A program made the translations under genes and the position numbers. Shown piece by piece: positions 12,899 to 18,804 of a DNA stretch of 41,796 nucleotides; position 1 is the first letter of the stretch; each line of letters opens with the position of its first letter. The DNA lies in contig CANRGO010000010.1 in the NCBI GenBank assembly GCA_947630125.1, forward strand, positions 1 to 41,796. Direction: 5' to 3'. Source of the DNA: an uncultured Lachnospiraceae bacterium (GTDB lineage: Bacteria > Bacillota > Clostridia > Lachnospirales > Lachnospiraceae). The notes beneath the pieces were generated by a model that had not been told where the DNA came from, ran no database searches, and saw only the letters and a program-made list of their open reading frames with translations.

Positions 12899-13935
12899 AT
12901 GATTATTAAAATACTAAGTATTTATTTGTTTGTAGGAGTGATGCTACTATCCTCTATGTTTAAGTCTGCAAATCTATTTGCTAGGTTGTTTGCTTGAGAT
13001 TAATACGGAATCCTTGGGAAATATGGTTCTTTGGAATCAAATTCAATACTTTGGGATTCCTTTTTTCCCAACATTATGGCTGCTTGTTAGTATGCAGTAC
13101 ACAGGTAGAGTAGAAAAAATGAAAACAATAAAAGGTATCTTACTCTTTTTTATACCAATTATGACATTTTTACTTCGATTTACCAATGAATGGCATCATT
13201 TATATTACAAAAGAATAGAAGTACAGGAAATTGAAGGTGTTCAGGTTTTATATTTAACCAAAGGGCCCTGGTATTTTATTCAGATGGCATATGTTTTATT
13301 TACGTTAATTATTTGTACCTGGTTTTACTTTCAAAGATATCGAAAAAGTGTTGGGGATGAAAGAGTTCAGTTTCGTCTATTGTTAATCGCTTCAATTTTA
13401 CCTTATTTGGCTTTGATTTTGGTATCAACTAATTTTGGTGGAATTGGAATTGATTATACTGCTATTATTTTACCTCCGTGTATTTTGATGATTCATTTAG
13501 CGCTCTCATATTTTAACTTTCTTGAAATACAACTTTTAGCAAGAGAAAGAGTTTTTGAGGATAGTGCAAGTGGACTTATATTACTGAATCGTTATTATCA
13601 ATTAGTTGATCATAATGAAAAAAGCTTGGCAATTTTATCGAATATTCGTGCTGATCTAAAAACGGATAATTTGAAGGATTTATTGACTGATGAACAAGAA
13701 TTTTCGTGAATTGGCAAAGGCAGCATTTGAAAAAGCAGAAATCTTTCGAAAATTAATCGAAGAAACTACAATGAGTTTTGGAACAGAAAGTTTTCATATT
13801 ACTGTAAGCATAGGCGTAGCTGAGTTTTCAAAGAAATTATCAACCCTTGACACCTTATTAAATAGTGCCGATGAAGCATTGTATCAAGCTAAGAAGAATA
13901 GAAGAAATCGTACAGAATATATAATTACCAAATAA
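12899..13935 (+). pseudogene. 7TM-PAS-GGDEF signalling gene, degraded
   Basis: Three pieces in three frames belong to one former gene. A start at 12899 opens with MIIKILSIYLFVGVMLLSS; a shift near 12980 leads into a 7TM sensor region like the N-terminal part of many clostridial histidine kinases and cyclases. This runs to the start of a PAS domain (ILLNRYYQLVDHNEKSLAI). At about 13690 the frame changes again and only the last third of a GGDEF domain remains (FHITVSIGVAEF and ADEALYQAKKNRRNRTEY). The rest of PAS and the GGDEF core with its active site are missing, so an internal deletion of several hundred bases occurred. No cyclase activity is possible. Confidence 0.85.
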
Positions 13936-13965
13936 CCCTTACGTAACAGTATGGGTTATTTTTTT
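13931..13965 (+). terminator. Rho-independent terminator upstream of the isoprenoid operon
   Basis: AATAACCC (13931-13938) pairs with GGGTTATT (13953-13960) and is followed by a run of T. It closes the degraded GGDEF gene and insulates the following operon. Confidence 0.85.
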
Positions 13966-13975
13966 GTAAAACAAC

Positions 13976-14005
13976 TTGCTAATTATAAGTCATAGAATTA
14001 TAATT
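13976..14005 (+). promoter_or_regulatory. Promoter and possible operator of the isoprenoid operon
   Basis: TTGCTA (13976-13981) and a perfect TATAAT (13999-14004) are 17 bases apart, 34 bases before the MarR-type gene. The -10 box lies within the palindrome AATTATAATT (13996-14005), a plausible but AT-rich site for the MarR protein. Confidence 0.65.
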
Positions 14006-14038
14006 GTAATTAACAACTAAATGTTAAAGAGGTAGAAT

Positions 14039-14458
14039 ATGTTTATTTGTGATATCAGTGTTTTTAATCGTTATGGTAAGCAAAAACTAGATGAACAACT
14101 TGAGGTACTAAATCTGAAATGGCATGATTTAGTATTGTTATTAGTGGTTGAACAAATTCCTGGGATAGAACAGGCTAGATTGATTCCATTTCTTCAAACA
14201 GACAAAGCTAATGTTACAAAATTAATACAAAGATTAGAACAAAATAATTATATATATCGTGAAACAAATAAGACGGATAAAAGAAATAAAAATGTATTTT
14301 TAACCAAGGAAGGAAAAAAACTTGTCCCAAAACTTTATGAAATCATGAATATCTGGGAAGATGCTTGTTTTTCTGAAATAGAGAAATCAGAACTGGAATT
14401 ATATAAAAAAATTAGTTCTAAAATCATTACGAATATTATGAGAAATACAAATGAGTAA
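14039..14458 (+). CDS. MarR-family regulator, first gene of the isoprenoid operon
   Basis: A 139-residue winged-helix protein. Residues about 45-105 form the DNA-binding domain (ARLIPFLQTDKANVTKLIQRLEQNNYI, then NKTDKRNKNVFLTKEGKK as the wing). Short helices at each end should form the dimer interface. The ATG has AGAGGT about 6 bases upstream. It has its own promoter after a terminator, and the squalene/phytoene synthase gene follows after 72 bases in the same direction with no terminator between. It is therefore a good candidate for sensing a prenyl compound or membrane stress and controlling the operon; this role is inference. Confidence 0.85.
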   Translation: MFICDISVFNRYGKQKLDEQLEVLNLKWHDLVLLLVVEQIPGIEQARLIPFLQTDKANVTKLIQRLEQNNYIYRETNKTDKRNKNVFLTKEGKKLVPKLYEIMNIWEDACFSEIEKSELELYKKISSKIITNIMRNTNE

Positions 14459-14530
14459 CTTAATAAGAAGGATATCAGGAAGAATTTGCGCGGAAGAATT
14501 GAGACGGGATCAGGTGGAGGATACTTTTTC

Positions 14531-15484
14531 ATGAAATATAAATCAGAAGAACTTAAGACTTCCTATTTTTATGCAGAAAAAATAATGCATGAAAAAGCAG
14601 TAAGTTTTTATCAGGCTTTTTCAAAATTATCTGAAAATAGATTCTATAGTGTCTGTGCGGTATATGCATTTTGTAGATATGTAGATGATTTGGTTGATGG
14701 TTTCGATAATGACAATCTAAAACCTAAGGAAAAAGAGAACGTTTTGAAAGAATTACAGGATATAGAAGACTGTATTCAAAAACTTGAAAAAGAAAATAAA
14801 AAGCAAAACTTGGATTATCCTTGGTGGTTGTCTTTTGAAGATACTTTTCTAACATTTCGTATGAAGGCAGAACCCTTTTGTTGGCAAATACAAGGGCAAC
14901 GTTGTGATTTAGATTTTAAAGAAATTCAAACCATAGAAGAATTAATTGAGTATTCTAAACTAGTGGCAGGATCTGTTGGTTATATGTTGCTTCCTATTTT
15001 AGTGAACGAAACGAACAATTGGGACATAAATCTTGTGAATGCCTGCGTAAATTTGGGAATTGGTATGCAAATTACCAATATTTTGAGAGATGTGGGTGAA
15101 GATTTAACCAAAAGAAACCGAGTTTATTTACCACAAGAACTTCTTAAAAACTATCAATTGGGCATTGAAGATTTGAGAAGGTTTTGCAATAATTTTACAT
15201 TGTATTATGAAACAACAAGTTTTAAACACTTTATAAATCTATGGGAAGAACTTACAACTGTATCAAAAAAATATTATGAATCTTTGGAGCCTTACATCAT
15301 GGATTTCGAAAAAACATGTCGTTTGCCTTTAGCAGCAGCATCGAAAATTTATCAATCCATTGAACAGGCAGTGCGAGATGAACGGTATGATTGCTTTACA
15401 AAGCGTTGTTATACAAATAAAAAATTGAGAAATGCTATTTTAGTACAAGTTTTGAATACTTTAAATAACAAAACAAGAGGGTAA
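14531..15484 (+). CDS. Squalene/phytoene synthase-family enzyme (head-to-head prenyl synthase)
   Basis: A 317-residue protein of about normal length for the family, which joins two prenyl diphosphates into presqualene/squalene, dehydrosqualene or phytoene. Both metal-diphosphate motifs are present: YVDDLVDGFD near residues 55-65, preceded by VYAFCR, and NILRDVGEDLTKRNRVYLP near 185-205. The sequence does not tell whether C15 or C20 units are used. The start is ATG 14531, 10 bases after GGTGGAGG; an upstream TTG would add 15 residues without family similarity. The next gene starts 4 bases after its stop. No desaturase or cyclase gene is nearby. Confidence 0.9.
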   Translation: MKYKSEELKTSYFYAEKIMHEKAVSFYQAFSKLSENRFYSVCAVYAFCRYVDDLVDGFDNDNLKPKEKENVLKELQDIEDCIQKLEKENKKQNLDYPWWLSFEDTFLTFRMKAEPFCWQIQGQRCDLDFKEIQTIEELIEYSKLVAGSVGYMLLPILVNETNNWDINLVNACVNLGIGMQITNILRDVGEDLTKRNRVYLPQELLKNYQLGIEDLRRFCNNFTLYYETTSFKHFINLWEELTTVSKKYYESLEPYIMDFEKTCRLPLAAASKIYQSIEQAVRDERYDCFTKRCYTNKKLRNAILVQVLNTLNNKTRG

Positions 15485-15488
15485 TTTT

Positions 15489-16940
15489 GTGGGAAACTTA
15501 GTGGGACTTTTTATTTCAATGATTTATATACTTTTTATTCTTGTGTTAGGTACAGCTGTTGCAAAACTTAGCAAAGGGGCTTCAGAATCCTCCAGAAAGT
15601 TAGTGCATATTTTAGTAGGAAATTGGGTTTTTTTAAGCCCAATGTTTACGGAACTTATTTTTGTTGTTTTGGTACCCTTTACATTTATTATTGTAAATAG
15701 TCTTAGTCTGAAATATAACCTGATAAAAGCAATGGAACGGGATGATGATAGTCTTGGAACTGTTTATTATGCCATAAGTATGTTTGTATTAACAGGAGTT
15801 GGATATTTACTGCAATGGCCGATACTTCCCTTTATTGGGCTTTTAATTATGGCCTACGGGGATGGTTTGGCAGCTATCATTGGAAAAAAATGGGGCAAAA
15901 ACAAACCATTCACTTTTGCACCAGAGAAAAGCGTAGTAGGAAGTATGACTGTTTTTTTTATTGCATTCTTGGTAACTTGTATCACGATAGTTGTTGCTGA
16001 AGACATTGGTAGGATGGAAAAAACCAATCCGATGTATCTTATTATGATTGGCCTTTTAACAGGGTTTTTTGCAGTGATATTGGAATTATCTGGAAAGAAA
16101 GGAAGTGACAATTTATTGCTTCCTATTGGTACTGGATTTTTTGCTTCCGTATGCTATTATTTAGGTACGACAGGTTTCTATCTTTATATGATGGTAGCTG
16201 CACTCGTCCTGTATCTTGCTTTTTGGTTAAAAGCAATTACCATGGATGGAATTGTTTTCGCACTAATGACCGCAACCTTTCTTTATGGTTTTGGTGGTGT
16301 CTGGATTGGAACTAGTTTGCTCTTGTTTTTTGTACTGGGAAGTCTGGTAAGTAAATTGAAAAATGATCGTAAGCTTAGAGCAGAGAAATTACAGGAAGCA
16401 ACACAGGCAAGAAATTGGATCCAGGTTATTTGTAATTCGTTGCCAGCTACGGTATTGGTGTGGTTATACTTTTTGTTTCCAGGTAAAGAAGTATTCTTGC
16501 TTTTAGCGTTTGCAGTTTTTTCAGCAGCTGCAGCAGACACCTTTTCTTCAGAACTTGGGATGTTGTTCAAAGGAAAAGTTTTTTCTATACTAACAGGTAA
16601 AGAGATTGCCCCTGGTCTTTCTGGTGGGGTATCACTTGGTGGTTTTTTTGCCTCCATATTAGGCGGTTTTCTATTATCTCTGCCAGCGTATCCAATATTT
16701 GACATCCAAGGAGTTTTATTTGTCTTTTTATTAGGTATACTGGGTGGTTTTATAGACAGTATTTTTGGCGCGCTAATTCAGAGAAAATATCGTACAGAAA
16801 CAGGTATTTTGCAAGAAATGGTGAAAACAGAAGGGGATTTACTTGTAGCAGGTTTTTCCTTTGTATCAAATCATATGGTAAATTTGCTGAGTCTTTCTAT
16901 TATCCCTATGATAGGAATGGTTTTTTATTGTTTACTTTAA
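15489..16940 (+). CDS. Fused phytol/dolichol-kinase-like and DUF92 (phytyl-phosphate-kinase-like) membrane protein
   Basis: A 483-residue polytopic membrane protein made of two domains. Residues 1 to about 230 resemble CTP-dependent polyprenol kinases (VTE5/SEC59 type): SSRKLVHILVGN, then AYGDGLAAIIGKKWGK and KSVVGS, the usual motif order. Residues about 235-483 match DUF92 (plant VTE6 type): MDGIVFALMTA, AAADTFSSELG, and the KEIAPGLSGGVSLGG loop, then GFIDSIFGALIQ. In plants VTE5 phosphorylates phytol and VTE6 phosphorylates phytyl phosphate, giving phytyl diphosphate. A fusion of both would take a prenyl alcohol to its diphosphate in one protein, the substrate class of the synthase encoded 4 bases upstream. 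Start codon GTG. The kinase roles are inferred from homology. Confidence 0.8.
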   Translation: MGNLVGLFISMIYILFILVLGTAVAKLSKGASESSRKLVHILVGNWVFLSPMFTELIFVVLVPFTFIIVNSLSLKYNLIKAMERDDDSLGTVYYAISMFVLTGVGYLLQWPILPFIGLLIMAYGDGLAAIIGKKWGKNKPFTFAPEKSVVGSMTVFFIAFLVTCITIVVAEDIGRMEKTNPMYLIMIGLLTGFFAVILELSGKKGSDNLLLPIGTGFFASVCYYLGTTGFYLYMMVAALVLYLAFWLKAITMDGIVFALMTATFLYGFGGVWIGTSLLLFFVLGSLVSKLKNDRKLRAEKLQEATQARNWIQVICNSLPATVLVWLYFLFPGKEVFLLLAFAVFSAAAADTFSSELGMLFKGKVFSILTGKEIAPGLSGGVSLGGFFASILGGFLLSLPAYPIFDIQGVLFVFLLGILGGFIDSIFGALIQRKYRTETGILQEMVKTEGDLLVAGFSFVSNHMVNLLSLSIIPMIGMVFYCLL

Positions 16941-17005
16941 TAACGAAAAGTATAAAAATTATAAATAGGTAATCTGTATTTTTATATGTTAGGTGGTGAA
17001 TTAAC

Positions 17006-18226
17006 ATGAAAAATGTAAGAAAAGTATTATTCTTAGTGGTAATTACTTTAATAATTTTTGCTTCAGATGGTTTCGAAGCAGTTTATGCAACAAATTTTAT
17101 TGATTGTCCAGATTGTAATAATGGACACTCACAAGCATGTAAGTGCGGTGGAGCAGGTGAATATTTGCAATCTTGTGATTTATGTGGTGGAAGCACAACT
17201 TTATTGTGTGACTTATGTAATGGAAGTGGTACATTTGATGGAAGCAGCTGTTATCGGTGTGGTGGAGATGGAGCTATGTTATGTAATCGCTGTGGTGGAA
17301 GTGGAACGCAAATGCTTGGTTGTAATAAACCTTATTGTTCAAGATGTGGCGGTACAGGTGGATACCCTGAAGGGTCACCAGAACATATTCAACAATTGAA
17401 AGATGAAGGTAATTACGTAGAACCAGAAAAGAGTGAAATCACAATACCAAAGATCGAAAATTTTGACGAATTTAATAAAGTTGAAGATATTACTATTATT
17501 GAAAACATAACACCAGAGCTCATTTCTCAAAACAAAGATATAGAAATATCTCCAAATTTGAGTATTTCTATAACAAAATCAACAACAGAACAGCTTGATG
17601 TTCTGAAAAAAATTCCAGAAGAAGAACTGAAAACATTAATTAATTTGATCAGTGATATTGTATCAACTGTGGAAATGGGTAAAGTAAGTAAACAATCTGA
17701 ATCATATATTAATCGTGTAATGGAACAAGAAAATATTAATATGCAACTAATTTGTTTTGAAGAACATGAAAGTATAGAGTTGGGATTTCCTGTTGAAGTA
17801 TTTGTTCCTGTTTTTGACAATCAATTTGATGAAATGGAAAATGCTTATGCCTATCATATTGTTCAAAATGGAAATGAAGCAGAATATTTAGGAGAAGCCA
17901 TTCTTCATAAAAATGAAGATGGAAAAGTATATGAATTATCATTTGTGACGGATGGGTTTTCTGATTTTTTTATTACTACAACACAAATCAAACTTGAGAA
18001 TTTAACTTATAAATCTGAATATGAAATTAGTAATAACATAGAAGAAGATGAAGCTGAAGATGAATATATTGAAACAAAAAAAATAGAAAAAACAGAAAAA
18101 ACAGAAGAAATGCCTAGTCAGGTTAAAGAAGATAGTAATACTCTGATTATTTTTGGAGGAATACTAGGAATAATAGTTGTTATTTTAATTGGATTTTTAA
18201 TTAAAAATATATACAAAAAAAACTGA
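17006..18226 (+). CDS. Secreted, C-terminally membrane-anchored protein with CxxCxG zinc-finger-like repeats
   Basis: A 406-residue protein. Residues 1-29 form a signal peptide with likely cleavage after VYA. Residues about 33-125 hold a row of cysteine motifs (CPDCNNG, CDLCGGS, CDLCNGSG, CYRCGGDG, CNRCGGSG, CSRCGGTG) like the zinc-binding region of DnaJ but with no J-domain. The middle is rich in acidic residues and contains a domain ending in VTDGFSDFFI, seen in clostridial surface proteins. Near residues 378-400 a hydrophobic segment followed by KNIYKKN should anchor it in the membrane, with the body outside. It follows the kinase fusion by 65 bases and ends in a terminator, so it is probably the last gene of the operon. 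Its role is unknown. Confidence 0.75.
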   Translation: MKNVRKVLFLVVITLIIFASDGFEAVYATNFIDCPDCNNGHSQACKCGGAGEYLQSCDLCGGSTTLLCDLCNGSGTFDGSSCYRCGGDGAMLCNRCGGSGTQMLGCNKPYCSRCGGTGGYPEGSPEHIQQLKDEGNYVEPEKSEITIPKIENFDEFNKVEDITIIENITPELISQNKDIEISPNLSISITKSTTEQLDVLKKIPEEELKTLINLISDIVSTVEMGKVSKQSESYINRVMEQENINMQLICFEEHESIELGFPVEVFVPVFDNQFDEMENAYAYHIVQNGNEAEYLGEAILHKNEDGKVYELSFVTDGFSDFFITTTQIKLENLTYKSEYEISNNIEEDEAEDEYIETKKIEKTEKTEEMPSQVKEDSNTLIIFGGILGIIVVILIGFLIKNIYKKN

Positions 18227-18250
18227 GAGAAATTCTCAGTTTTTTTGTAT
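18209..18250. terminator. Bidirectional terminator between the isoprenoid operon and a GGDEF pseudogene
   Basis: An inverted repeat of about 20 bases per arm (ATATAC, an A run, ACTGAGA on the left; TCTCAGT, a T run, GTATAT on the right) has a GAAAT loop at 18229-18233. The A run (8) and T run (7) make it work in both directions. The stop codon of the plus-strand gene (18224-18226) lies in the stem. Confidence 0.88.
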
Positions 18251-18804
18251 ATAACACGGTTTCTTCCTAAATGTTTTGCCTCATATAATTTCTCATCTGC
18301 AGCAGCAATAAAATCTGAAGTCGATTGATTTTTATAAGATTCAACACCTGCACTAATTGTAATTTTTGTCTCTTCAGAAAAAACAAATGCTTCAACTTTT
18401 TTCCGAATTCTTTCTGCTATTAGATAAGCTTTTTCTTCAGTGGTAGATGGGAAAAGGATGATAAATTCTTCGCCACCATAGCGACAGCAAGATCAATATC
18501 AAAGATAGCAATAGAAAAAGGAAATTCACTTTCAGAATATGCCTCCTGATACCTATTTAATACATCCATAATGGCACGTCTGTTATAAAGACCTGTTAAA
18601 GCATCTGTTTTTGATTTTGTTTCCCATTGATTTTTTTCAGATATAAGTTGCATTTCCTGTTCTTTTTTTTCTGTAATATCAAACACGATACCAGCAGCAA
18701 AAAGAGGATTCCCGTTCTCGATCTTCTAATAACTGCTTATTTAATAAAGTTACTTCTTGTAACAATTCAATTAACTCTTCCTTGGTATAGTTGATATAAT
18801 CCAT
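18236..18804 (-). pseudogene. PAS-GGDEF gene with internal deletions
   Basis: A start at 18804 with AGGAGAG before it opens MDYINYTKEELIELLQEV, a coiled segment. At about 18710 the frame breaks and almost the whole PAS domain is missing; only its last strand remains (GIVFDITEKKEQE). The GGDEF domain then begins normally (KTDALTGLYNRRA, ending at IFDID near 18497). A second deletion with frame change removes the segment up to CRYGGEEF, which is followed by an otherwise normal C-terminal half (EEKAYLIAERIRKKV, ADEKLYEAKHLGRNRV). The loss includes the region with the substrate-binding N/D of the cyclase, so the product is dead. It shares the terminator with the convergent plus-strand gene. Confidence 0.85.

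Follow-up and report, generated by a model that had tools for sequence, protein, structure and literature searches.

An apparent C30 carotenoid operon with a desaturase scar and a fused putative prenol kinase pair in a Lachnospiraceae genome

We analysed a 41,796-nucleotide stretch of DNA, hereafter the window, that forms contig C10 of the genome assembly of an uncultured, anaerobic gut-type Lachnospiraceae bacterium (2.64 Mb, 170 contigs, 84.7% complete). It carries an operon (Table 1) that is, by its ancestry, a C30 carotenoid operon without its desaturase. The genes that remain encode a synthase of the squalene/phytoene synthase (SQS/PSY) family and a membrane protein in which two putative prenol-salvage kinases are fused. 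Our preferred explanation, to which we assign a probability of about 0.5, is that the fusion would make farnesyl diphosphate (FPP) from farnesol and that the synthase, CrtM, would convert this FPP into a colourless C30 hydrocarbon. The first-pass annotation of this DNA had noted that no desaturase is nearby and had expected an end product unusual for an anaerobe. A design that lacked the desaturase from the outset is not upheld, as relatives have the desaturase gene crtN beside crtM and the window keeps the last codons of it.

A search of the window with the CrtN (diapophytoene desaturase) of a relative returned one short match, located exactly before the synthase gene. The matching residues align with SGKICAEELRRDEPEDNFS and its stop codon, the C-terminus of CrtN from genome G140, and the ATGA stop/start overlap with crtM is identical in both. 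The BLOSUM62 score of this segment against the crtN C-terminal end of L015 is 81, against next best scores of 20 within the window and 26 across 418 kb of DNA from elsewhere. The segment, which the first-pass annotation had missed, is therefore the scar of a deleted crtN gene; crtM in the window has no intact crtN beside it, only this scar of 18-19 codons. A complete carotenoid pathway with crtN located elsewhere, within the unassembled 15% of the genome, is allowed for by the incompleteness of the assembly. However, no crtI/crtN-type gene scored over the cut-off in the 84.7% complete assembly, which gave only short Rossmann-motif matches. Moreover, all other inspected crtM loci have crtN sequence adjoining, and the scar points to loss in place, which makes a complete pathway very unlikely.

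Genome G1017 carries a different crtN deletion, in which the beginning of the protein (MDKKVIVVGA...) is joined to the CrtN C-terminus, leaving about 50 codons, with the synthase and the fusion intact. In both the kinase tree (support 94/94) and the synthase tree (86/96), the neighbour of G1017 is G140, which retains crtN sequence, rather than the window; this support is below our strict threshold. Because of these placements, crtN looks to have been lost independently in the lineages of the window and of G1017. Separate desaturase loss with the synthase and kinase kept suggests that these lineages may be keeping the colourless precursor, or the salvage of FPP. Elsewhere in its genome, G1017 also possesses a crtI-like gene that is more distant, and an additional synthase that is degenerate. 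The latter (L106, 7340-8182) is an HpnD-like member of the SQS/PSY family (E 5e-23) from which the usual Asp-rich motifs are apparently missing.

The synthase gene named by the first-pass annotation is present, with a PF00494 score of 173.9 bits (cut-off 26, E 7e-51); its start is corrected here to the ATG at 14531, which is preceded by a strong ribosome site. Its top matches among PDB sequences are all CrtM enzymes (8is6, E 1e-40; 5iys, E 6e-37; Staphylococcus aureus CrtM 2zco, E 3e-21), compared with 8e-8 for HpnC and approximately 1e-6 to 1e-5 for the remaining squalene synthases. Both Asp motifs, DDLVD and DVGED, are found in the alignment. Thus, the protein is assigned by its sequence to the CrtM subgroup as a dehydrosqualene synthase, and its product is predicted accordingly. 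The first-pass annotation had allowed for either a C30 or a C40 product, and only the former is favoured here. In a C40 route, salvage would turn phytol or geranylgeraniol into the diphosphate, and head-to-head condensation would yield a C40 hydrocarbon resembling phytoene or lycopane. The plant VTE5 and VTE6 proteins do act on phytol (PMC9782597), and the position equivalent to W38 of S. aureus CrtM is a Cys instead of a Trp in the window synthase, which could widen the pocket. On the other hand, the Phe equivalent to F26 of S. aureus CrtM is kept in the window synthase and in all relatives, and this residue favours C30. Since the synthase groups with CrtM structures and retains this Phe, a C40 product is less likely than a C30 product, and we regard the C40 route as highly improbable. 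A hopanoid route was also considered and rejected: the window has a single synthase, weakly similar to the HpnD and HpnC models and below their cut-offs, and squalene-hopene cyclase (PF13243) gave no match in the assembly, at its 84.7% completeness.

The first-pass annotation had described the next gene as a fusion of a VTE5-like and a DUF92/VTE6-like protein. The second half of this description is borne out, with residues 236-470 matching PF01940 (DUF92) at 190 bits (cut-off 27.5, E 6e-56); the match to TIGR00297, 104 bits with E 1e-29, lies below its cut-off of 205.9. The assignment of the VTE5-like half rests on motifs and gene pairing; this half gave no match in Pfam or NCBIfam at E values up to 10. 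Its stand-alone homologues likewise had no match in these two collections. The motifs RK..H, GD..A...G, K..G and E..DN..P are invariant or nearly so across 16 aligned VTE5-like sequences, and we take RK..H, GD..A...G, K..G and DN..P to fit the VTE5/SEC59 kind. In addition, the N-terminal half aligns with separate VTE5-like genes of relatives. Because of the conserved motifs and of the separate gene beside DUF92 in relatives, we infer that this half is a VTE5-like putative prenol kinase and that the fusion is probably a VTE5/VTE6-type salvage pair in a single chain. Relatives of the fusion were absent from the plasmid and phage collections, and a scan of genome contigs with the fusion protein alone returned only one distant VTE5-like gene, in a Neomarinimicrobiota genome.

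We compared this neighbourhood in samples of 344 whole genomes of the order and 391 of the class, and searched more widely across the phylum. Few genomes carry the full-length fusion (E<=1e-40): it was found in 7 of the 344 order genomes, and SQS/PSY genes occur in 6 genomes of this sample. The two are present together in five order genomes, where they are adjacent and always in the order synthase then fusion (Fisher p 3e-9); G370, G057, G140 and G189 have a crtI-family desaturase upstream. In the class sample, SQS/PSY genes were found in 6 of 391 genomes, and all six loci have VTE5-like and DUF92 genes or domains downstream. In the five of these genomes other than that of the window (G433, G529, G738, G654 and G703), crtN, crtM, VTE5-like and DUF92 are separate neighbouring genes, though crtN is encoded on the other strand in G433 and G529. 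In the clade of the window, the two kinase genes are fused. Taken over both samples, 10 of the 11 loci ascertained through the synthase carry the VTE5-like and DUF92 sequences directly downstream, the exception being G056, where crtM is accompanied only by a divergent crtN. The genomes with this linkage span several families of the order and class, and every sampled locus except the window retains all or part of a crtN/crtI-type desaturase. The link between a prenol kinase and a head-to-head synthase proposed by the first-pass annotation is therefore conserved, and the neighbourhood test set in advance failed to refute it. No paper describing a crtM-VTE5-VTE6 linkage was found in the open-licence literature. 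In the unfused operons of G529 (L044, 12948-14183) and G433 (L045, 11818-13053), a gene resembling M48 CAAX prenyl proteases directly follows crtN, with PF01435 and PF16491 matches in L044.

At phylum level, many genomes have the kinase pair, adjacent or fused, but no SQS/PSY gene, and the pair lies there among unrelated genes. The pair is thus a module of wider occurrence, whose attachment to crtM is specific within the sampled class; against our preferred explanation, the kinase may serve another prenyl sink. The pair could be a general farnesol or prenol salvage system feeding FPP to undecaprenyl phosphate and quinones, with crtM as one dispensable customer of several. Of the 6 copies in the fused clade, 5 have an intact kinase, while crtN or crtM is broken in several, and the kinase is found elsewhere with undecaprenyl-diphosphate-synthase-like genes or in a UbiA cluster. 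The occurrence of SQS/PSY with the kinase at 10 of 11 loci, in the constant order crtM-VTE5-VTE6, argues instead for a specific link, and we consider general salvage distinctly unlikely. In G295 (L021, 5374-10623), the genes after a divergent VTE5-VTE6 fusion encode a sulfatase-like protein, two proteins resembling undecaprenyl-diphosphate synthase (PF01255) and one resembling nucleoside-diphosphate kinase, possibly a prenyl-phosphate cluster. In G051 (L023, 862-7320), a 440-residue VTE5-like protein is clustered with a UbiA prenyltransferase and a DUF3419 protein in what appears to be a prenyl-lipid cluster. The undecaprenyl-diphosphate-synthase-like and UbiA neighbours support a role of this kinase family in prenyl diphosphate formation.

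According to our preferred explanation, the ancestor was a clostridial C30 carotenoid operon with the order crtN-crtM-VTE5-VTE6. The two kinase genes became one in the clade of the window, and crtN was deleted in the lineage of the window, where its last codons remain as a scar and preserve the overlap with crtM. The N-terminal half of the fusion would use cytidine triphosphate (CTP) to convert a short prenol into its monophosphate; farnesol, released by FPP turnover or taken from the gut contents, is the likeliest candidate. The DUF92 half would add the second phosphate to give FPP. CrtM, translated in step, would join two FPP molecules via presqualene diphosphate into colourless dehydrosqualene or squalene, and this C30 hydrocarbon would be the end product for want of a desaturase. 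The ancestry, the scar, the conserved linkage and the intact catalytic residues are shown by the present data, whereas substrate, nucleotide, product and the benefit of the operon are predictions in this scheme. A narrower proposal is that the clostridial kinase pair specifically feeds CrtM, that the useful product is the colourless hydrocarbon and not a pigment, and that desaturase loss is tolerated or favoured under anaerobic conditions; we advance it only tentatively, as a possibility below even odds.

Several observations weigh against the scheme. The genome carries two polyprenyl synthase genes of its own, so that FPP can also arise de novo and salvage is not obviously needed. The VTE5-like half lacks a solved relative among PDB sequences as well as the family match mentioned above, and a single-sequence structure model of the fusion was unusable (predicted local distance difference test score 46). 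Eubacterium limosum makes neither 4,4'-diapophytoene nor 4,4'-diaponeurosporene under strict anaerobiosis (PMC11611032). Finally, decay is real in part of the fused clade. In G057, a single-contig assembly, crtM (L017, 8209-9225) has a single in-frame TAA after codon 221, with crtN and the fusion intact. In G189 (L020, 6172-9025), crtN has lost residues approximately 11-108 in frame, and a second internal deletion runs crtM residue approximately 271 straight into fusion residue approximately 187.

Since related copies are decaying, the window copy may be decaying too, and decay is the main rival reading. It holds that the operon is a relic in neutral decay, with crtN lost first, crtM and the kinase intact for want of time, and no product made. 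The piecemeal damage in relatives, namely the nonsense codon of G057, the internal deletions of G189 and the shortened crtN of G1017, fits this reading, as do the rare and patchy occurrence of the operon and the anaerobic silence of E. limosum. Against it, the window synthase keeps 48 of the 50 residues that do not vary among crtN-bearing synthases, and its kinase fusion keeps all 33 invariant residues; the corresponding counts in G1017, following its separate crtN loss, are 50 of 50 and 33 of 33. Retention of these residues after loss of crtN argues for continued use. Ribosome sites and the translational overlap are also kept, and the differences from G140 cluster at third codon positions, though this mostly reflects older history. 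Within the fused clade the kinase is most often the intact gene. We judge the relic reading unlikely, while giving it more weight than any other alternative.

The operon resembles the crtM-crtN pairs of Firmicutes such as S. aureus, Lactiplantibacillus and E. limosum (PMC11611032) in its CrtM-type synthase and in the desaturase that adjoins it in relatives. A clostridial pair is functional in E. coli, where E. limosum crtM makes 4,4'-diapophytoene (PMC11611032). Unlike these pairs, the window has only a desaturase scar together with a downstream prenol kinase fusion, a neighbour unmentioned in PMC11611032. Heliobacteria, which are anaerobic Firmicutes, make C30 carotenoids and a farnesol-esterified bacteriochlorophyll, with no crtM identified (PMC7143216); anaerobic CrtN function is thus possible in principle. 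VTE5 and VTE6 of plants and a cyanobacterium (Arabidopsis and Synechocystis) prefer CTP, and the very few proven genes for prenol and prenyl-phosphate kinases all come from plants and a cyanobacterium (PMC9782597). A further prenol kinase has been reported in malaria parasites (PMC10849223). As in the pair of phytol kinase VTE5 and phytyl-phosphate kinase VTE6 (PMC9782597), the window encodes two membrane protein units, one with the motifs listed above and one of the DUF92/TIGR00297 type. In contrast to that pair, they form one chain, in a non-phototrophic anaerobe, and are linked to a C30 synthase, because of which farnesol is the likelier substrate. The HpnC/HpnD/HpnE set with its hopanoid cyclase differs in that the window has a single synthase and the assembly no cyclase.

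This compact clostridial set, with both predicted kinases behind a C30 synthase and both steps placed in one protein by the fusion, is a ready test case. It bears on why strict anaerobes keep carotenoid genes, a question raised for E. limosum (PMC11611032). If the narrower proposal above is correct, one of the two kinase activities would be that of a bacterial farnesyl-phosphate kinase, an enzyme with few known genes.

Table 1. Features of the operon and its boundaries, in window coordinates.
Feature	Position	Strand	Details
Upstream intrinsic terminator	13931..13965	+	Fold -13.7 kcal/mol, z -3.0 (13925-13972 against shuffles); T run after
Promoter-like site with overlapping inverted repeats, candidate MarR operator	13976..14016	+	TTGCTA-17-TATAAT
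MarR-family regulator, 139 residues	14039..14458	+	PF01047, E 1.3e-11
Mini open reading frame, 27 codons, overlapping the marR stop	14451..14534	+	MSNLIRRISGRICAEELRRDQVEDTFS and stop; last 18-19 codons read as crtN C-terminal remnant
Deletion scar of crtN (diapophytoene desaturase)	14475..14534	+	SGRICAEELRRDQVEDTFS and stop; stop overlaps synthase ATG (ATGA)
Predicted CrtM-type dehydrosqualene (4,4'-diapophytoene) synthase, SQS/PSY family, 317 residues	14531..15484	+	PF00494
Fused membrane protein, 483 residues	15489..16940	+	N-terminal half VTE5/SEC59-like putative prenol kinase; C-terminal half DUF92/VTE6-like putative prenyl-phosphate kinase
Secreted-type protein with CxxCxG clusters and C-terminal membrane anchor	17006..18226	+	Co-directional with operon
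Downstream bidirectional terminator	18217..18245		Fold -15.4 kcal/mol, z -6.7 (18212-18252 against shuffles)

The layout given by the first-pass annotation, four genes between two terminators, is confirmed, and both stems fold far better than shuffled sequences. Its single promoter is less certain: the window contains 37 matches of this type compared with 37.3 expected, which puts the site at 13976-14004 at chance level. Inverted repeats (13976-13988 with 14004-14016, and 13981-13991 with 13995-14005) overlap this promoter-like match and would make a suitable candidate MarR operator. The marR gene and the CxxC-rich secreted-type gene were both as announced. The latter encodes a surface-type protein with five or more CxxCxG clusters, similar to the zinc repeats of DnaJ, and has no Pfam match. 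A marR gene was not found beside the homologous operons of relatives, and the CxxC protein gene is absent at these loci; both were therefore rejected as conserved members of the pathway.

Directly upstream of the operon, positions 12978-13709 encode the N-terminus of a seven-transmembrane sensor of the histidine kinase type (PF16927). It is followed in another frame, at 13690-13935, by only the C-terminal half of an apparent GGDEF domain. The region 12978-13935 thus reads as a gene for a diguanylate cyclase that has suffered either a frameshift or the loss of an internal segment. On the opposite strand, a fragmentary GGDEF-type gene (18240-18800), its frame broken near 18490, converges on the operon terminator.

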